Assembly: GCA_943788725.1 (NCBI GenBank)
Contig: CALSRJ010000003.1
Span: 248,001-312,000 of the forward strand
Origin: an uncultured Flavobacteriales bacterium
GTDB lineage: Bacteria > Bacteroidota > Bacteroidia > Flavobacteriales_G > Salibacteraceae
Direction: 5' to 3'
DNA length: 64,000 nucleotides
Every line of letters begins with the position of its first letter. The stretch's first letter is position 1. The translations under genes and the position numbers were made by a program. Shown here one piece after another: positions 41,454-51,301 of the stretch. The notes under the pieces are model-generated. The model was given only the letters and a program-made list of their open reading frames with translations, did not search any database and had not been told where the DNA came from.

Positions 41454-42965
41454 CTATAGCTCCTGAAGAGCTTCTATGTGCTCAGCCTTTCTTCTGTAGC
41501 ACTGCATAGCATCCTTAAACACCGCCGATTTGAAGATGGATTTATTCAAGAGCATGCGTACACATTCTTGAATTCCTTCGATGATAGAAGGATGGGGATG
41601 CACGAGGTCAGCGAGCACTTCGATGGACTCATCCATCTTGATTAACAATCCAATGGCCTGAATGGCGCTTGAGGCGTGTTCTCCGATGGCACGCATTCCA
41701 AGAATCCTCATCTTTTCGTCATCTGTCACAATGATTTTGAAGAATCCTTGCGTCTTTCGCATGGCAATGGCTCTAGCAATGCAGCTATAGTCAATCTTCA
41801 CCACCTTGATGGCGAGACCTCTCTCAACGCATTGTTGCTCGTTGAGTCCAACTGCCGCCACTTCCGGGTTGAGAAACATGATTGTACAAATGTTGTCGTA
41901 AGAAACGGTATCGTCATGTTCGTAACCTACAATTCGTTCGACCGCATGACGCGCCTCAATCTCTCCCATGTTTACGAGCGCGATGTGTCCTGAGACGTCA
42001 CCCACTGCGTATATGTTCGGAACGTTGGTTTGGGTGTCACTGTCTGTGATGTAATTACGGTCACTTACAGTAACGCCTGCTTTTTCTAAACAGAGATGTT
42101 CAGTATTGGGGATCCTACCTACTGATAGAAGCGCCTTTTCAACACGAATCACCTCGTTTCTCCCATCCGGATAAGACAATTCATATTCGACTTCTCCATC
42201 CACAATTTCCATGCGCAGCAGTTTAGCTGTACTGTGGATAGTGGCGCCTTTTTCGTTCAGGTTGTCGCTGACCATTTTTGCGATGTCCTCATCCTCGAAA
42301 GGAAGAATGCGGTCAGCTCGATCAATCAGGTAGACATCGGTTTTGCCGAAATTGGAAAAAATAGTCGCATACTCACAACCGATCACGCCGGCACCTAAAA
42401 TCACTAAGCTTTTGGGATAGTCATCCATGTGATGTATACCGTCCGAAGTCATGATGATCTTCTCGTCTACTTCAATGTCCGGTAGTTTTCGAGGTCGACT
42501 GCCCGTGGCAATAATCGTATAATCAGCATGAATGATTTCTTCGCCTTTCTTGTTGACGATTTTAATTTCTGTCGACGACTCAAAGGTTGCCGAACCTCTT
42601 GCGTATCGGAAGCGCACCGTGGAGGTTTCTTCCTGAAGTAGTTTGATATGAGCGGAATACTGTTGCTTTCTGTCGAAGATGGCCTCCCGCACCGTTTGTT
42701 GTACATCGTCCCATTCCAGATCGAAAAGCTTGCGCCCTTGGGCAGAAAGCATTTCGTTGATGGACGCTACACGGGAAGATACTTCCCAAGTCGTTTTAGA
42801 AGTGAGCGCACCATCGTAGATCGCGGCGCCGCCAACCTTCCCTTTTTCAATGAGGATCACCTTCTTCCCGAAGTCAATCGCTCGCATCGCAGCAGCGTAT
42901 CCCGAAGGGCCGCCACCGATTACACAGATATCGTAATGTTCCAATGGGTTGTTTTGTACAATCAC
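41454..42965 (-). CDS. Lpd/SthA-like flavoprotein lacking redox cysteines
   Basis: A 503-residue pyridine nucleotide-disulfide oxidoreductase family member. FAD motif YDICVIGGGPSGYAAAMRAI; NAD(P) motif SLVILGAGVIGCEYATIFSN; second FAD motif TNVPNIYAVGDVSG; C-terminal dimer domain with VHPHPSIIEGIQE in the place of the catalytic HPT..E. The redox site, normally GGTCLNVGCIPSK, reads GGAAIYDGALTSK, with Ala48 and Ala53 replacing both cysteines. It therefore cannot do lipoamide-type disulfide chemistry and may be a transhydrogenase (SthA-like), a diaphorase or a sensor. No 2-oxoacid dehydrogenase genes are nearby. Confidence 0.88.
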   Translation of the reverse strand: MIVQNNPLEHYDICVIGGGPSGYAAAMRAIDFGKKVILIEKGKVGGAAIYDGALTSKTTWEVSSRVASINEMLSAQGRKLFDLEWDDVQQTVREAIFDRKQQYSAHIKLLQEETSTVRFRYARGSATFESSTEIKIVNKKGEEIIHADYTIIATGSRPRKLPDIEVDEKIIMTSDGIHHMDDYPKSLVILGAGVIGCEYATIFSNFGKTDVYLIDRADRILPFEDEDIAKMVSDNLNEKGATIHSTAKLLRMEIVDGEVEYELSYPDGRNEVIRVEKALLSVGRIPNTEHLCLEKAGVTVSDRNYITDSDTQTNVPNIYAVGDVSGHIALVNMGEIEARHAVERIVGYEHDDTVSYDNICTIMFLNPEVAAVGLNEQQCVERGLAIKVVKIDYSCIARAIAMRKTQGFFKIIVTDDEKMRILGMRAIGEHASSAIQAIGLLIKMDESIEVLADLVHPHPSIIEGIQECVRMLLNKSIFKSAVFKDAMQCYRRKAEHIEALQEL

Positions 42966-43104
42966 TAAGGTATGGAAAATTATACTCCACGCGCCAGGTC
43001 GTAATATATCAAAGGCAACGCATGAGGTCTAGAAAGAGTCTATATAGATACCCTTTCCCAGACTTTCTCAGAATACTTTCCATTGGCCCTAAAAATCAGA
43101 GGTT

Positions 43105-46100
43105 ATGGAAAACTTAACTAGTCGCACCATCAGGTCGGGGACAGCCGAAACTCCTTTATTTTCGTGGAACGAGGCCTGTTTTCTTATCCGGAGGATCCTG
43201 ATCATTTTTTTTATGCTTTTGCTCGCGGGTATTGCGCGCAGCCAATGCAACGTTTATGACGGGCAAGGCAATTCAGTGAACAACCCTGTTTGGGTCAGTT
43301 GTTCGGGGGGTGCTTATACGCTCTACGTTCAATCTCCGAACAATTTTGGGTACACCATCATCAATTGGGGAGATGGAACCGCAAACACTGTTGTGAATTC
43401 GATCATTCCTCCCGCGTACGTTTCGCATACCTATGCTGCGGCCATCGCGAATTATACAGTGACCATTACTGACACTACGAATAATTGTGTCGCTACGGGA
43501 CTGGTCGTTATGGAGAAGCCGGTGAATGCGTCTATACAGATTCCGATAGGTGGAGTTACCCAGACATGCGCTCCCAATGACCTCATCTTCTTAAACAGTA
43601 GCACCGATGTTTCTCAGAATACGACATTTACCTGGGATTTTGGTGATGGATCTCCCATTTTGACGTTCGGTTCAGCGAATGCGGGTGAGACAATAACGCA
43701 CACCTATCTTCAAGGTACGGTGGATTGCGTAACCGAAGTTATCCTCACTGCAGAGAACTACTGCAGCTTTGGGAATCCGACAGAGGCTTCGTTTAATCCT
43801 ATTCAGATTTATGACTTGGATGATGCTCAGATTACGGCGAGTAATGTGCTGTTGTGCTACCCTGATACGGTGGTGCATTTTGCAAATACCACCGCAAAGA
43901 ATTGCGTCCCCCAAGGAAACACAGCTCAACGCTTCGAATATTGGAATTTTGGAAATTATTGGGGCACGGGACAAGATTCCATCTTCGAATGGACGCCGTT
44001 CGATCCGCCAGCCAAACCTGGGTACGATATAGCCTATCCTGGCATTGGGGTGCACACGGTCATGATGGCTGACAGCAATATGTGTGGACGCGACACAGCT
44101 TTTATTACTATCCAAATCGTAGAAGCGCCGATAGCCGGATTGACAGCGAGTGCTGACAGTGCTTGCACGGGAACGCCCATCACATTCACAAATACAAGTA
44201 CCGGCGGGAATCAAACCTTGATTAACTATGGTGATGGCGGTGGATTTTTAGCCATTGGAGCGACTTCCAGTCACTCTTACGGAACCGCTGGTAACTATAC
44301 CGTCACCCTCGTCACGAATATTGTTGGAGGAACCCAGTCTTGTGATGATACCGTCACCATTGACGTTGAAGTGCTGCCCAGTCCAACGGCTTCTGCTAGC
44401 TTATCTCCGGCCTCTGGCTGTGATTCGTTGCAGGCTGTCTTCATCAACTCATCTTTTGGCGGCAGCATTTATTATTGGGATTTCGGAAATGGAGATACCA
44501 GCACCCTTCAGAACCCACCTCCGATTATGTACACCAACGAAGGGCCTACGCAAGTAATATTGGTAGTTACAAGCAACAACGGGTGCAGTGCTTCCGACAC
44601 GGCTATCATTGAAGTGTTCGATACACCACTGGTGAATTTCGGACTTCAAAATTTTTGTGAGGATGCCCTGGCCAGCTTTGTCGATTCCACCACAGTGGGA
44701 TACGGCGGTCCAGTGAATTCCTGGCTTTGGAGTTTTGGCGATACTGCCAATACCACCTCAACCTTGCAGAATCCTTCTTTCATATACGTCGATTCGGGAA
44801 CCTATACCATCACCCTTATCGCCGCAACCGCATATTGTCAGGACTCGGTTAGCCAGACCATCGTTGTTGAGGCAAAGCCGAATGCAGGTTTTACACCGTC
44901 GGATACGGTGGCTTGCTCGCCATTCACAGTCGCTTTTACGAATACTTCTGTAGGAGCAGTGTCCTATGCATGGTCCTTTGGTGACGGCAATACTAGTGCG
45001 GCTGTTTCTCCGAGCCATACGTTCATACACAGCGCATTGACCGATACAACTTTTGTAGTGCGAATGATTGCGCAAAGTGCCTTTGGGTGTGTCGATACGG
45101 TGTATGACACCATCACTGTTTTGGGAAATCCAGCTGCTTCTTTCTCCTCTGATGCCGTGCTGGATTGTGCCCCCCTCGAGGTTAATTTTTCAGATAGCTC
45201 AGCCGGCGCTGTTTCCTGGCTTTGGGATTTTGGAGATTTTACAGGAAGTACGCTGCAAAACCCGTCTAAGATCTTTGAAAACCAAACCCTCTTCATCACG
45301 AATTATACGGTGAAATTATTCGTAACCGCTCCCAATGGTTGCGTAGACAGTGTTGAACAGACAATCACGGTATATCCAGAGCCACTTTTTAATTTTCAGA
45401 TTGTCCCTGACTCTGGTTGCAGTCCGTTGGTTGTGCAATTTCCAGTGGCCGTGGGGGCGGTGCTTTACAATTGGGATTTTGGTGATGGCAACACGGCCAC
45501 GGGACCTAACCCGCCCCATACTTATTACAATAACACGACGAACAGTCAGATTTTCACGGCGCAGCTAATCGCTACATCGCCATTTGGATGCCTTGATACC
45601 GTTCAAGGGGATGTGAAAGTCTTTCCAAACCCAACGGCGAGTATTACCCCGCTGACCCAAGCAGGGTGCGAACCGTACACGGCGAGTTTTGTAAATGCCT
45701 CTACAGGAGGAACCACATATACATGGGATTATGACAATGGTCAAACCCAAACGACGAACAATATCTCTGTGAGCTCCACCTACGCGAATGGGACGAACGA
45801 CACTTTGTTTTTCCAACCCATGCTTATCGCGACGTCGAACGATGGCTGTATTGACACTGCCTACTCCGAGGTCGCTGTTTATCGCAGGATCGACGCTTCC
45901 TTTAGTGTTCCTTCACCTGCTTGCCATCCTTACAATGCGAATTTTACAGACCAATCCGTCAATGTCGTGAATTGGAGCTGGGATTTTGATAATGGCCAGT
46001 TTTCTACCCAACAGAACCCGAACCTTTTCTTCCTCAACACATCCAATACGGCCGACACCTTCGATGTGAACCTTGAAGTGCAGAATTTGGAGCAATGCGC

Positions 46101-47697
46101 GGATGATACGACGGTTCAATTGGTGGTCTTCCCCAAACCTTCGGCCATCTATACGATCAACAACACACCCGCATGTCATGAGGAGGAAGTCCAATTCACG
46201 AATTCAAGCACTCAGAACGCTATCAATCAATGGCGTTTTGGAAATGGCTTACCCTACATCGATAATGATCCTGTCATCGATACGTCGGTTTTAAATTTCA
46301 CGACTAATCCCATCACTTTTTCGATTCAGTTGATCGTTGAAAACGATTATGGGTGCACCGATACGACAGAACAATCCATGCAAGTATTCCCATGGGTGGA
46401 CGCGAAATTTGCTTCTATAGATGAGGGATGTTCGCCCTTCGACGTGGAGTTTACCAACTTGAGCAGCGGCGGAAATCTTTATGAATGGCAATTCGGCGAC
46501 GGTCAAGTTTCTTTTCTAGATGAACCGGAACACACCTTTGTCAACAACGATACCATGGATGTGATATACACGGTGGTTCTCTCCGTCACCTCTCCTTATG
46601 GTTGTACAGATCAAGACAGTTTTGACATCCTTGTGCATCCGACTCCTAAACCGCAGTTTACGGTAAATCCAGCGGCTCAGACGTATCCAAACGCAACCGT
46701 AAGTTACACCAACTTGACCAACGACGGACCTTGGAGCTACGAGTGGAAGTTCGGCGACGGAACTGATACGGTAGGTGAAAACCCGACGGATCATCTCTAT
46801 CCTACCTGGGGCGCATATCGAGTTACGCTTACCGCTTCCTCTCCCTATTGTGAGGACACAATCAGTCGAATTGTGCTCATCGAGCCACCGCTACCCGTTG
46901 CTGAATTCGATACGCTGGTAGATGAATGCGCGCCCATTGCCATTCAATTCTTTAGCAAGTCTGAATATGCAGAAACCTTCCTATGGGAATTTGGTGATGG
47001 CGCTACCAGTACAGCTGAAAATCCATTGTACACGTATCAATTCCCGGGTGTTTACACCGTTAAACTGACTGTTTTAGGGCCTGGCGGACAAATTGATTCG
47101 AAAGAAATTCTGAATGCTATCCGAGTGAACCCTGAACCATTAGCCAACTTTGTACATACACCAGACGAGGTGAACATTCCATTGGAGCCGGTGACCTTCA
47201 TCAATTATTCTCAATATGCGGATGGCTATTTGTGGAATTTTGGAGATGGTAACACATCCGAGGACGTTAGCCCACAGCATCAATATGGGGAGTCGGGCGA
47301 ATTTTATCCCTGGCTGGTGGCGTACACCAATCTTGGGTGCTCAGATACAGCTTATAGTGAGGTACCTGTGCGCGCTATTGAAACGGGTGTCCTGGAAGTT
47401 CCGAATGCCTTTACGCCGAATCCTAATGGGCCCAGTGATGAAATGTATGATCCAAGGGCATTCGACAACGAAATCTTCTTTCCTATCTTTAGTGGGGTCT
47501 CCTCCTCAAATTTCACCTTGAGCATTTTTAATCGATGGGGTGAATTGCTTTTTGAAACGCATGATGTGAATCAAGGGTGGAACGGTTATTACCGAAATGC
47601 CATGTGCGTGCAGGATGTCTATGTGTGGAAGGTGAGGGGAGAGTATGCGAATGGAGAGCGTTTTACCAAAGTGGGAGATGTTACCCTGATTCAATAA
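43105..47697 (+). CDS. Giant PKD-repeat protein with T9SS type B (gliding-associated) C-terminal domain
   Basis: A 1,530-residue surface protein. The N-terminus has a long basic lead before the hydrophobic core RRILIIFFMLLLAGIARSQ, so the true start may be inside. About 14-16 PKD-type repeats of 80-100 residues follow, recognisable by WDFGDG-like turns (TFTWDFGDGSPIL, YAWSFGDGNTS, YNWDFGDGNTA, FLWEFGDGATS, YLWNFGDGNTS). Some are degenerate (YDNGQ, DFDNGQ, WRFGNG). The last 90 residues are a CHU_C / type B sorting domain: VPNAFTPNPNGPSDE, FNRWGELLFETHD, QGWNGYYRNAMCVQDVYVWK. It heads a three-gene unit with a PorE-like and a PorP/SprF gene. Likely a filamentous adhesin or motility-related protein. 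Confidence 0.92.
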   Translation: MENLTSRTIRSGTAETPLFSWNEACFLIRRILIIFFMLLLAGIARSQCNVYDGQGNSVNNPVWVSCSGGAYTLYVQSPNNFGYTIINWGDGTANTVVNSIIPPAYVSHTYAAAIANYTVTITDTTNNCVATGLVVMEKPVNASIQIPIGGVTQTCAPNDLIFLNSSTDVSQNTTFTWDFGDGSPILTFGSANAGETITHTYLQGTVDCVTEVILTAENYCSFGNPTEASFNPIQIYDLDDAQITASNVLLCYPDTVVHFANTTAKNCVPQGNTAQRFEYWNFGNYWGTGQDSIFEWTPFDPPAKPGYDIAYPGIGVHTVMMADSNMCGRDTAFITIQIVEAPIAGLTASADSACTGTPITFTNTSTGGNQTLINYGDGGGFLAIGATSSHSYGTAGNYTVTLVTNIVGGTQSCDDTVTIDVEVLPSPTASASLSPASGCDSLQAVFINSSFGGSIYYWDFGNGDTSTLQNPPPIMYTNEGPTQVILVVTSNNGCSASDTAIIEVFDTPLVNFGLQNFCEDALASFVDSTTVGYGGPVNSWLWSFGDTANTTSTLQNPSFIYVDSGTYTITLIAATAYCQDSVSQTIVVEAKPNAGFTPSDTVACSPFTVAFTNTSVGAVSYAWSFGDGNTSAAVSPSHTFIHSALTDTTFVVRMIAQSAFGCVDTVYDTITVLGNPAASFSSDAVLDCAPLEVNFSDSSAGAVSWLWDFGDFTGSTLQNPSKIFENQTLFITNYTVKLFVTAPNGCVDSVEQTITVYPEPLFNFQIVPDSGCSPLVVQFPVAVGAVLYNWDFGDGNTATGPNPPHTYYNNTTNSQIFTAQLIATSPFGCLDTVQGDVKVFPNPTASITPLTQAGCEPYTASFVNASTGGTTYTWDYDNGQTQTTNNISVSSTYANGTNDTLFFQPMLIATSNDGCIDTAYSEVAVYRRIDASFSVPSPACHPYNANFTDQSVNVVNWSWDFDNGQFSTQQNPNLFFLNTSNTADTFDVNLEVQNLEQCADDTTVQLVVFPKPSAIYTINNTPACHEEEVQFTNSSTQNAINQWRFGNGLPYIDNDPVIDTSVLNFTTNPITFSIQLIVENDYGCTDTTEQSMQVFPWVDAKFASIDEGCSPFDVEFTNLSSGGNLYEWQFGDGQVSFLDEPEHTFVNNDTMDVIYTVVLSVTSPYGCTDQDSFDILVHPTPKPQFTVNPAAQTYPNATVSYTNLTNDGPWSYEWKFGDGTDTVGENPTDHLYPTWGAYRVTLTASSPYCEDTISRIVLIEPPLPVAEFDTLVDECAPIAIQFFSKSEYAETFLWEFGDGATSTAENPLYTYQFPGVYTVKLTVLGPGGQIDSKEILNAIRVNPEPLANFVHTPDEVNIPLEPVTFINYSQYADGYLWNFGDGNTSEDVSPQHQYGESGEFYPWLVAYTNLGCSDTAYSEVPVRAIETGVLEVPNAFTPNPNGPSDEMYDPRAFDNEIFFPIFSGVSSSNFTLSIFNRWGELLFETHDVNQGWNGYYRNAMCVQDVYVWKVRGEYANGERFTKVGDVTLIQ

Positions 47698-47698
47698 A

Positions 47699-49255
47699 AT
47701 GGTAGAGTGCTTCAAGAAAATACTACTCATTGGATCATGCTTTGCTTGTTCAGGATTGCTTTTCGGACAGCGCTTGTCAACAGACGAGCAGGGGATTGTG
47801 GAAGAGGCTCGTGCTTCCTTTGAAATTGGCGATTTCCTCACCGTGCGTAGGCTTTTGGAACCGCACGTGACCGACTTCAATGCAGACCCTGAATTGATGT
47901 ATTTCTACGGGGGAGCGTCCTTTTATCTGCGTGAATTCCATACCGAGGCATTTCCATTTTTACGCGTCGCATATGAGTTAGGCGAAAGCAGGGCGCTGTA
48001 TATTTATGTCACGTCGTTGCTCGAGCGCTATCGCATTGCTGAAGCTCAAGATCTCTTAGAGAATTCTGGGGCGCTTGACCTCCCTGAAGGCAGGGAGTTA
48101 TACGCGCAAGTGCAGGTAGCCAAACGCGCCATGGCTGATCCGGTCCCCTCGGTTGTGGAACCGATGCCATCTGCCATCAATACCCCCTTTACAGAGCACT
48201 CGCCTTTGATCGCCGATGACGACTCTACACTTTATTTCACATCGCGGAAGCCCATGGATAAAAATGCCATCACCGACATGCTCGGGCGTTACGATGAGAA
48301 CATCTACCGCTCCATTAGAACAAAAGATGGATGGTCAATAGCTGAACCATTGGAAGGTGAGATCAACGACATTCTCAATGATGCTGCCGTAGCCTTGCTT
48401 GGCGATGAGGAGCGCATGGTCATTTTTAAAACAGCGCGAGACATGGAGTCTTCTGATTTGTGGCTGTTTGGATTGAACCGCAGTGGCAAATGGAAGAAAG
48501 AAATCAAGCTGAGTCCTTCGATCAATTCGAAATGGATTGAAAATGGACTTACGGTGAATACAAATGGTGACCTCTTCATTGTCGCAAGCGATCGCCCTGG
48601 AGGGTATGGCGGTATGGACCTGTACCGGATCGTTCGTTTCGGGAATGGCGAACACAGCGAACCCCGCAATTTGGGTCCATTGGTCAATACCCAATACGAT
48701 GAGATTGCCCCCACATTGTTGCTTGACGACAGAACGCTGTTCTTCTCTAGGAATGGTAGTGAGAGCATGGGCGGATTTGACGTATTCCGCACGAATTATT
48801 TGGGCGATACCACTTTTACCGATGTGGTCAATTTGGGGTACCCCATCAACTCAACACGCGACGATCTGCATATCTCTGTATCGCCGCTAACACGAAGGGC
48901 GTACCTGACCCGTAGTAAGGAGGATCAACCTGCTGATTTTGATATTTACTCGGCCAACTTGCCAGGTTTCAACCTCCTTGCTACGGTGTATAAATTCAAA
49001 CTGACCACAACAGCCGACCTCGCGCTGACAGATGCCGAAGTCAGTTTGTTTACCTCGGATTTTTCTGAGATACAGGGTATGTACACGGTAAATGAACGCG
49101 GCGAATTCATTGTGGTGCTTCTTCCGGGAGAAAGTGGGGTCCTAGGTATTGACCTACCCGGAGCGCATAGCGAGGAGATTGAGCTCTTCTACCAAGACTC
49201 CGATACCATTGTGGAGGAATTCCAAATCATTTCCTTAAGTCCGAATGAGCCGTGA
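47699..49255 (+). CDS. PorE-like protein (TPR, PD40 propeller, CRD) lacking OmpA domain
   Basis: A 518-residue exported protein (signal LIGSCFACSGLLFGQ). Residues 25-150 look like TPR-type helices (EARASFEIGDFLTVRRLLEP, AYELGESRALYIYVTSLLER). Residues 160-425 carry PD40/WD40-like propeller blades (EHSPLIADDDSTLYFTSRKP, NGDLFIVASDRPGGYGGMDLY, EIAPTLLLDDRTLFFSRNGS). The C-terminal 90 residues resemble a carboxypeptidase-regulatory beta-sandwich (ALTDAEVSLFTSDFSE). This is the order found in PorE of the T9SS, but the OmpA peptidoglycan-binding domain is missing. One base separates it from the PKD gene and it overlaps the PorP/SprF gene by GTGA. Confidence 0.82.
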   Translation: MVECFKKILLIGSCFACSGLLFGQRLSTDEQGIVEEARASFEIGDFLTVRRLLEPHVTDFNADPELMYFYGGASFYLREFHTEAFPFLRVAYELGESRALYIYVTSLLERYRIAEAQDLLENSGALDLPEGRELYAQVQVAKRAMADPVPSVVEPMPSAINTPFTEHSPLIADDDSTLYFTSRKPMDKNAITDMLGRYDENIYRSIRTKDGWSIAEPLEGEINDILNDAAVALLGDEERMVIFKTARDMESSDLWLFGLNRSGKWKKEIKLSPSINSKWIENGLTVNTNGDLFIVASDRPGGYGGMDLYRIVRFGNGEHSEPRNLGPLVNTQYDEIAPTLLLDDRTLFFSRNGSESMGGFDVFRTNYLGDTTFTDVVNLGYPINSTRDDLHISVSPLTRRAYLTRSKEDQPADFDIYSANLPGFNLLATVYKFKLTTTADLALTDAEVSLFTSDFSEIQGMYTVNERGEFIVVLLPGESGVLGIDLPGAHSEEIELFYQDSDTIVEEFQIISLSPNEP

Positions 49256-50253
49256 AATGGGGATTAACGATAGCGTTTTTCGCCACCATTGGAGTGGCTT
49301 GGGCTCAGGACCCTCAGTTTTCTCAGTTCTATAGTGCTCCGTTGTACATGAATCCCGGATTTGCCGGAAACACTATCCAAGCGCGGGCTGTGATCAACTA
49401 TCGAAACCAATGGCCCGCCATGCCCGGGAAATTTGTTTCCTATGCGGCCTCCTTTGATTACAACATAGAAGAATTGAACAGTGGTTTGGCCCTTTCATTT
49501 CTCCAAGACCGAGCAGGTACAGCTGCGTTGCGCTATTCGAACATTGCGTTGCAGTACTCCTACACCCTTCGGCTTTCACGTTATTTAGCCATAAAACCAG
49601 GGATTAGCTTTTCGTATTCATTCCGTGACGTCAATCGCTCTGCGCTGATTTTTGGTGATCAATTGATCTACGACAATCCTACATCTCAGTCATCCACGCG
49701 ATTCGACTATGAGCCAGTCCGATATCCGGACCTTGGTGCGGGTTCCATCTTGTATTCTAAGAATTGGTGGGCGGGAATGGCCTTCCATCACATCAACAGA
49801 CCTAATCAATCCTTGATTGCCCAAGAGAGTAGGTTGCCGATTCGGTTTTCAGTGCACGGCGGATACAATGTGGTGATGAAGAAGGATGTCAAGAAAAGGG
49901 ATGTTTCAAGTTTGACATTTGTCGCGCATTACAAAGCTCAAGGAAAGTGGGATCAGCTCGATATGGGAGCGTATTTCAAGTACCGAATTATTACTACCGG
50001 GCTTTACTACCGGGGTCTTCCTCTAGTGAAGACGAATGGCTACCAACAACCGAATCACGATGCCTTAACGGCGCTGATTGGATTTGAGTACAAGGACCTT
50101 GCCTTTGGCTATTCCTATGATCTGACCCTTTCAAAACTCATCACGAATTCAGGCGGCGCGCATGAGATTTCAATCATCTATGAGATGGCCAATGATCGAA
50201 AGAAGAGGAGGAGAAGAAGAAGCAGGTTCTTCATTCCATGCGCGAAGTTCTAG
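49252..50253 (+). CDS. PorP/SprF-family T9SS outer membrane protein
   Basis: A 333-residue outer membrane protein starting at GTG 49252 (GTGA overlap). Signal peptide GLTIAFFATIGVAWAQ; the family opening DPQFSQFYSAPLYMNPGFAG is unmistakable, followed by NYRNQWPAMPGKFVSYAASFDY and GLALSFLQDRAG. The barrel continues to HEISIIYEMAN, then a basic tail (RKKRRRRRSRF). In Flavobacterium johnsoniae, proteins with type B sorting domains need a cognate PorP/SprF-like partner encoded next to them; here the giant PKD protein is the obvious client. It ends 1 bp from the convergent rluD; a weak hairpin with GCGAAG / CTTCGC (50242-50272) and four T overlaps both 3' ends. Confidence 0.94.
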   Translation: MKWGLTIAFFATIGVAWAQDPQFSQFYSAPLYMNPGFAGNTIQARAVINYRNQWPAMPGKFVSYAASFDYNIEELNSGLALSFLQDRAGTAALRYSNIALQYSYTLRLSRYLAIKPGISFSYSFRDVNRSALIFGDQLIYDNPTSQSSTRFDYEPVRYPDLGAGSILYSKNWWAGMAFHHINRPNQSLIAQESRLPIRFSVHGGYNVVMKKDVKKRDVSSLTFVAHYKAQGKWDQLDMGAYFKYRIITTGLYYRGLPLVKTNGYQQPNHDALTALIGFEYKDLAFGYSYDLTLSKLITNSGGAHEISIIYEMANDRKKRRRRRSRFFIPCAKF

Positions 50254-50254
50254 G

Positions 50255-51301
50255 TCAATCGGTTCCCTTCGCTTTTACGTAGACTTTCCATTTTTCAATG
50301 ACTTGAACCATGTCTTCGGGCAATGGACATTCAAATTCCATCCATTCATTGGTCACTGGATGCGTGAATCCCAGGGTCTTTGCATGAAGGGCCTGACGTG
50401 GAAGGATTTGAAGACAGTTGTCAATGAATTGGCGGTACTTGCTAAACGTAGTGCCTTTCAGAATTTTGTCGCCTCCATAGCGTACGTCACCGAACAAGGT
50501 GTGATTGATGTACTTCATGTGCGCTCTGATCTGATGCGTTCTTCCCGTATCTAACTTACACCTCACTAAGGTCACGTAACCAAATCGTTCGAGCACTTCA
50601 TAGTGCGTGACGGCATGTTTTCCTTCTTCCCCATCTGGGTATACCGTCATTTGCTTTCGGTCGCCGTGTGACCTTCCTATATTGCCGGTGATGGTTCCTT
50701 TGTCATCTTCAATGTTTCCCCAGGCAATGGCATAGTAGTAGCGCTGGGTGGTTCTATTGAAAAATTGCGCTGCGAGGTTAGAAAGCACATCTTCCTTTTT
50801 GGCAATCACCAGCAAACCGGTGGTGTCTTTGTCTATGCGATGCACCAGGCCGGGGTAGGCCACATCACTTTTTTCATTCTTGGGCAGGTAGCCAAAATGA
50901 TGCAGTAAAGCATTCACTAGGGTGCCCGTATAGTTTCCATGTCCGGGATGAACGACGAAACCGGCTGGTTTGTTGACGACCACTAGGTAATCGTCTTCGT
51001 AAACGATGTCCAAAGGAATGTCCTCCGGCAGCAGCTTCAGCTCGTGTTTTGGATGTGAGAATACCAGTGAAATATCATCTTCTGGTTTGACTTTATAATT
51101 CTGCTTTACAGATTGGCCGTTCACAACCACGTTGCCATTTTTGGCGGCGGCCGAAATCTTGCTTCTCGAAATATGCGGAATGCGATCGATCAGGAACTTG
51201 TCGATCCGCAGAGGTGCTTGTCCTGGGTCTGCTGTGACTTGAAAATGCTCGAAACTCTCGTCTCCATCTTGATCTTCAATCAGGTCTTCTTCGTCTTTCA
51301 T
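50255..51301 (-). CDS. rluD: 23S rRNA pseudouridine synthase RluD family
   Basis: A 348-residue RluA/RluD-family enzyme. An S4 RNA-binding domain lies at about residues 28-85 (LRIDKFLIDRIPHISRSKISAAAKNG), and the catalytic domain has Asp157 in PGLVHRIDKDTTGLLVIAKK. Other family segments: VVVNKPAGFVVHPGHGN, RCKLDTGRTHQIRAHMKYI, RQALHAKTLGFTHP. It should make pseudouridines in helix 69 of 23S rRNA. The ATG at 51301 overlaps the TGA of the upstream T9SS gene (ATGA at 51298-51301), but only if that gene's frameshift is corrected. Confidence 0.94.
   Translation of the reverse strand: MKDEEDLIEDQDGDESFEHFQVTADPGQAPLRIDKFLIDRIPHISRSKISAAAKNGNVVVNGQSVKQNYKVKPEDDISLVFSHPKHELKLLPEDIPLDIVYEDDYLVVVNKPAGFVVHPGHGNYTGTLVNALLHHFGYLPKNEKSDVAYPGLVHRIDKDTTGLLVIAKKEDVLSNLAAQFFNRTTQRYYYAIAWGNIEDDKGTITGNIGRSHGDRKQMTVYPDGEEGKHAVTHYEVLERFGYVTLVRCKLDTGRTHQIRAHMKYINHTLFGDVRYGGDKILKGTTFSKYRQFIDNCLQILPRQALHAKTLGFTHPVTNEWMEFECPLPEDMVQVIEKWKVYVKAKGTD

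Follow-up and report, generated by a model that had tools for sequence, protein, structure and literature searches.

A compact gene triad for a type B surface protein

The window, by which we mean the whole 64,000-nucleotide stretch of DNA analysed here, carries three closely packed genes that encode a predicted T9SS substrate, a PorE-like protein and a PorP/SprF carrier. The features of this locus are as follows.

43105..47697, + strand: type B T9SS substrate, a PKD-repeat surface protein of 1530 aa (Pfam PKD_4, 1.7e-103; CHU_C, 30.9 bits)
47699..49255, + strand: PorE-like periplasmic protein without OmpA, 518 aa, with a signal peptide, TPR-like helices, a PD40 propeller and a CRD-like end (PD40; partial NF052230 match; hhalign to OmpA-bearing PorE)
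49252..50253, + strand: PorP/SprF outer-membrane carrier, 333 aa, with a basic periplasmic tail ending RSRFFIPCAKF (PorP_SprF, TIGR03519, tail signature)
50221..50250, + strand: codons for the PorP C-terminal tail SRFFIPCAKF, including the class-conserved cysteine (cysteine in 59/62 class carriers)

The TAA stop codon of the substrate gene is separated by one base from the ATG at 47699, and the GTG that begins the PorP gene overlaps the TGA of the PorE-like gene at 49252-49255. These junctions and reading frames can be read directly in the sequence, and so the packing described in an earlier, sequence-only reading of this DNA (one base between the first two genes, a GTGA shared by the last two) stands. 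Because the second and third genes overlap, there is no room between them for a remnant of an OmpA domain, and loss of OmpA to a neighbouring open reading frame was ruled out on the same grounds.

The substrate contains 12 PKD_4 stretches, followed at residues ~1431-1512 by a CHU_C domain that exceeds the Pfam cut-off of 27 bits. This location, C-terminal to the PKD repeats, is the one expected for a type B sorting domain, although the corresponding NCBIfam model TIGR04131 scores 28.8, under its cut-off of 35. The protein ends in GDVTLIQ. It had been called a giant adhesin, and it is indeed large, but the term is relative since other type B proteins of the window's genome reach about 2,000-4,000 aa. 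Assignment of the carrier is secure for both models applied, with PorP_SprF (PF11751) matching at 3.1e-58 (197.9 bits, cut-off 22.3) and TIGR03519 at 222.5 bits (cut-off 90.55).

The middle protein was evaluated by several routes. It matches positions 137-466 of the 648-position PorE model NF052230 with 128.7 bits, which misses by far the full-length cut-off of 600 bits. When a profile built from 58 members of the class described below was compared by hhalign with a 685-residue profile of OmpA-bearing PorE from the window's own genome, residues 2-518 aligned with positions 4-541 (probability 100, E 3e-108), with TPR, PD40 propeller and CRD regions following one another in the order known from PorE. 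The P. gingivalis protein is laid out as TPR (residues 25-149), propeller (167-435), CRD (441-527) and OmpA (534-668) (PMC7192894), and thus the 518-residue protein stops at the boundary between CRD and OmpA. This agrees with the previous description of a PorE body that ends short of the OmpA domain. Among eight class members, Pfam finds PD40 in all eight and TPR and CarboxypepD_reg in some; in the window's protein PD40 is matched and TPR is not. No OmpA match was obtained for the window protein or for any of 61 class members. Because both this domain and a full-length score are missing, we classify the protein as a PorE homologue rather than as PorE.

A lipobox-like IGSC is present in the window protein, but the corresponding residues are IGTC in a relative with 91% identity, and 58 of the 61 class members lack any lipobox pattern (pattern searches in both cases). 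The only cysteines of the window's PorE-like protein (residues 4, 14 and 17) all fall within the signal peptide, which rules out this protein as a disulfide partner for the PorP tail. About 60 genes from at least 17 families encode proteins that are all close to 513-553 aa and stop at one common position, excluding a frameshifted or truncated PorE, and 54 columns are invariant in an alignment of eight class sequences. Structure prediction for the middle protein from two sequences reached a pLDDT of 36.5 with no usable fold, and phmmer against PDB chains returned chance matches alone (Polycystin-2, E 0.06).

Distribution and loss of the OmpA-less arrangement

We counted 110 PorE-like genes across all loci examined. 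Every one of the 61 that lie directly upstream of a PorP gene lacks OmpA, and a CHU_C gene precedes 59 of them, yielding the order substrate-PorE-PorP. In contrast, OmpA is present in 16 of the 19 PorE-like genes located directly downstream of PorP, the three exceptions being a frameshifted gene (L001), a gene that runs off the end of its contig, and a 412-aa protein (L131) with a short, possibly degenerate OmpA end. The most common PorE-PorP junction in the upstream class is a 4-bp overlap. Since the identical three-gene order is kept in about 60 loci, a chance arrangement can be excluded. A few class members carry an in-frame stop. Nine OmpA-less members of the same PorE clade have no adjacent PorP, in one case solely through a frameshift. 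With 61 genes directly before PorP against these nine, the proposed tight association of the OmpA-less gene with PorP and with a type B substrate is upheld, and the contrary prospect that the gene would be found mostly away from PorP is not borne out.

The best relatives of the middle protein in 60 related genomes are again OmpA-less and about 520 aa long, as are those in 296 genomes of the taxonomic class. Thirty loci were recovered from the latter search, of which 27 carry CHU_C, short PorE and PorP genes in order (the PorE frame is interrupted in two). At the remaining three loci, the gene caller took the wrong strand (L064), a frameshift is present (L071), or PorP is missing at a contig edge (L065). 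A search of viral contigs for further relatives found none. Overall, the class is seen in at least 17 Bacteroidota families (f1, f3, f7, f9, f10, f17, f22, f25, f26, f31, f32, f33, f35, f38, f42, f53 and f56 in our search numbering). Most upstream-PorE loci were found with an OmpA-less query, and therefore their number is uninformative with regard to frequency. Among 90 PorP genes sampled regardless of PorE, a PorE gene lies upstream in two and downstream in 20, indicating that the upstream class is a minority.

The window's genome contains 12 PorP/SprF genes, and the order substrate-PorE-PorP occurs there in the window triad only. Six other PorP genes precede a PorE-like gene, giving the order substrate-PorP-PorE; OmpA was found in four of these PorE-like genes, the domain at L007 being degenerate. 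Of the remaining two, one (L009) runs off the contig, and the other (L001 5146-8882; G000:C1), a PorE gene with OmpA beside PorP, is distributed over three overlapping ORFs with OmpA in the last, reflecting either gene decay or an error in sequencing. Elsewhere in this genome, another OmpA-less PorE-like protein (527 aa; L012 7728-9311, G000:C1:79727-81310) is encoded after a CHU_C gene, with two small ORFs in between, and has no PorP neighbour. Tandem PorE homologues are found at L014 (6653-13607), L167, L172, L174 and L179, where the first lacks OmpA and the second has it where complete. These tandem genes come after a ~440-aa gene (at L014, a 2-oxoacid dehydrogenase E2 subunit), with no PorP nearby.

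Comparisons within the genus exposed repeated loss. The site matching window positions 42965-50255 was located in seven congeners (L188-L194, in G001, G004, G005, G011, G007, G012 and G002, respectively), and between the same two flanking genes some congeners carry the triad and others only its remnants. In G001, an intact substrate gene (1523 aa) and an intact carrier gene (334 aa) lie 6 bp apart and the middle gene is absent. Scraps of the substrate gene start and the carrier gene end are left in G002, G004 and G005, scraps of the carrier alone in G007 and G011, and nothing in G012; the part that tends to remain is the end of the carrier gene. From these sequence remnants we conclude that the module is probably ancestral in the genus and dispensable, and the gene content of G001 implies that loss of the middle gene need not entail loss of the other two, although these are draft genomes in which single cases need care.

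Signatures of the carrier and substrate

One feature overlooked in the sequence-only reading is a cysteine in the tail of the carrier, which is found in 59 of 62 class carriers (57 within the last 15 residues and two more ahead of an extension) but in only one of the 20 whose PorE gene lies downstream. That single case is the carrier at L007, whose PorE partner has a degenerate OmpA domain with a binding motif that lacks its customary Asp. The ending PC-x-KF is shared by 47 of the 62 class carriers. A periplasmic C-terminal cysteine is a trait of the SprF kind, and the window carrier has a single one (PCAKF). Substrates of the class are likewise distinctive: 50 of 59 have a G[DE]-x-x-L-x-R-like (GDVTLLR-like) ending, compared with none of 16 and one of 35 in the other arrangements.

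On the PorP tree, class carriers form one clade together with three carriers that have no adjacent PorE (SH-aLRT 98). The sister of this clade is a lineage found beside gldJ (SH-aLRT 98 for the join), and the main PorP partners of OmpA-bearing proteins are placed elsewhere. Class PorE bodies also cluster, with weaker support (83) and together with some unlinked OmpA-less genes. The tail cysteine is present in 14 of 14 members of the gldJ-adjacent lineage, and it may therefore be ancestral rather than tied to the absence of OmpA. When the association between tail cysteine and PorE type is tested with correction for phylogeny, the PorP tree offers only two to four independent pairs, and the test has no power. 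In the window's genome, the PorP gene beside gldJ (L003, G000:C2:283563-284591), which is near porU and porV, encodes a CPxF-like tail; similar loci are L099, L103, L105, L107 and L114, and none has a type B or PorE neighbour.

Within the class, distances among the substrate CTD, PorE and PorP are correlated (Mantel r 0.56-0.68, p 0.0005), a correlation to which shared host descent also contributes. Co-variation of all three proteins is therefore present.

A possible surface-protein mount without wall fixation

The three protein families are already known, as is the concept of a complex of substrate, PorP and PorE. In P. gingivalis, a PorE-PorP-client complex has been published in which PorP binds its type B client (PG1035) directly, without PorE, and PorE binds PorP (PMC9143113). 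The PorE protein of that system is a lipoprotein needed for T9SS function (PMC9143113, PMC7192894), and its C-terminal OmpA domain binds peptidoglycan (PMC7192894). The window shares with this system the type B substrate, the PorP barrel and the TPR, propeller and CRD regions of PorE (PMC9143113, PMC7192894), but its middle protein has no OmpA and, by pattern search, no conserved lipobox, and the gene resides between those for substrate and carrier. Published triads from F. johnsoniae also unite a type B substrate with a PorP/SprF protein and a PorE homologue (PMC12618676), a precedent that the earlier account of this locus had missed. Triads of the Fjoh_3952-Fjoh_3951-Fjoh_3950 type likewise bring together a substrate, an SprF-like shuttle and a PorE homologue; however, the PorE homologue gene is downstream of the shuttle gene (PMC12618676). 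Moreover, F. johnsoniae PorE homologues have been reported to match more than 95% of PorE length and to conserve the peptidoglycan-binding residues (PMC7192894). The SprB-SprF pair resembles the window in that a PorP/SprF carrier whose periplasmic tail has a conserved cysteine holds a type B adhesin without any wall-binding partner (PMC12635249). The SprF tail is Cys-x-Cys, and no PorE-like gene lies next to that of SprF, whereas the window carrier has one cysteine and an OmpA-less PorE-like gene. The open-access literature that was searched yielded no account of an OmpA-less class with PorE before PorP.

Type B substrates partnered with PorE have been proposed to be static, and those without PorE to be mobile (PMC9143113, PMC12618676). 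The recurring triad has the appearance of a second kind of mount for surface proteins, without wall fixation. On balance, we favor the hypothesis that the three genes encode a T9SS surface-display module with an unanchored periplasmic PorE-like companion under a carrier that is probably laterally mobile. The PKD protein would be exported by the T9SS via its type B domain and would remain attached, in the outer membrane, to a PorP/SprF barrel of its own. By analogy with P. gingivalis PorE, the companion would dock under the barrel through its TPR, propeller and CRD body. Lacking OmpA and a conserved lipobox, it would not tether the complex to peptidoglycan and, on its own, would not fasten it to the membrane either. 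If the companion provides no tie to the wall, then the carrier is probably free to move laterally, and the surface protein would be mobile or freely diffusing.

More tentatively, the carrier may be connected to the GldK track through its tail cysteine, in the manner reported for SprF, whose tail cysteine is bonded to Cys343 of GldK and couples the adhesin to a moving track (PMC12635249). GldK of the window's genome retains the cysteine of a GCFLANF motif (Cys331), which aligns with GCFLGNF of P. gingivalis PorK; judging from spacing, Cys331 would correspond to F. johnsoniae Cys343. This resemblance suggests, without proving, a disulfide to the track like that of SprF. Perhaps Bacteroidota use two PorE-PorP mounts, a static one (OmpA present, PorE after PorP, no tail cysteine) and a mobile one (OmpA absent, PorE before PorP, cysteine to the GldK track), a generalization that we regard as speculative and somewhat unlikely in its entirety. 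The presence of GldJ was rejected as a discriminator of genomes with the class, because it is found in all 47 such genomes searched but also in 17 of 19 without the class.

The function of the middle protein might be quite different. It had been read as a dedicated adaptor between PorP and its client, a role made doubtful by the direct binding of client to PorP in P. gingivalis (PMC9143113) and by the loss of the middle gene in G001. A related possibility is that the protein serves mainly in assembly or loading, helping the barrel collect its client from SprA/Sov, with no part in anchoring or mobility. TPR and propeller domains are protein-binding scaffolds, the gene lies between those for client and carrier so that all are made together, coupling is tight (most often a 4-bp overlap), and the three proteins co-vary, all of which would suit such a factor. 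Yet the PorP-PG1035 complex forms without PorE and SprB-SprF functions without a PorE-like gene alongside (PMC9143113), G001 keeps an intact substrate and carrier, and three more carriers of the clade have no adjacent PorE, leaving us to view a pure loading role as unlikely, though it is the alternative we take most seriously.

Less probable still is that short PorE binds a separately encoded OmpA-domain protein, and that the mount is as static as in the OmpA-bearing class. The window's genome has many genes for OmpA-domain proteins that are not part of PorP operons, and OmpA-less and OmpA-bearing PorE-like genes occur in tandem at other loci. In the flanks that we inspected, however, the class triads have no neighbouring OmpA gene, and the separate carrier clade with its tail and substrate signatures argues for a different destination. 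We give hardly any credence to the notion that the middle gene is no more than a functionless PorE remnant, degraded and truncated. Repeated loss of the triad inside the genus and the in-frame stops in a few members would fit decay, but the constant length and end point across so many families and the 54 invariant columns speak against it, and this conservation has already largely refuted the idea.

The class bears on a question of T9SS research, namely which type B surface proteins are fixed to the wall and which move, and it does so as a natural experiment, in that its carriers have a PorE partner with all PorE domains but the wall anchor. A rule combining gene order, OmpA, carrier tail and substrate ending predicts fixed or moving behavior for many proteins. 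If the generalization to two mounts holds, the proteins on the mobile mount would be a widespread, previously overlooked class of track-propelled surface proteins in addition to SprB. At one locus (L041 1728-17397, G047), an OmpA-less triad is co-directional with two further genes in the order substrate-PorE-PorP-porU-porV.
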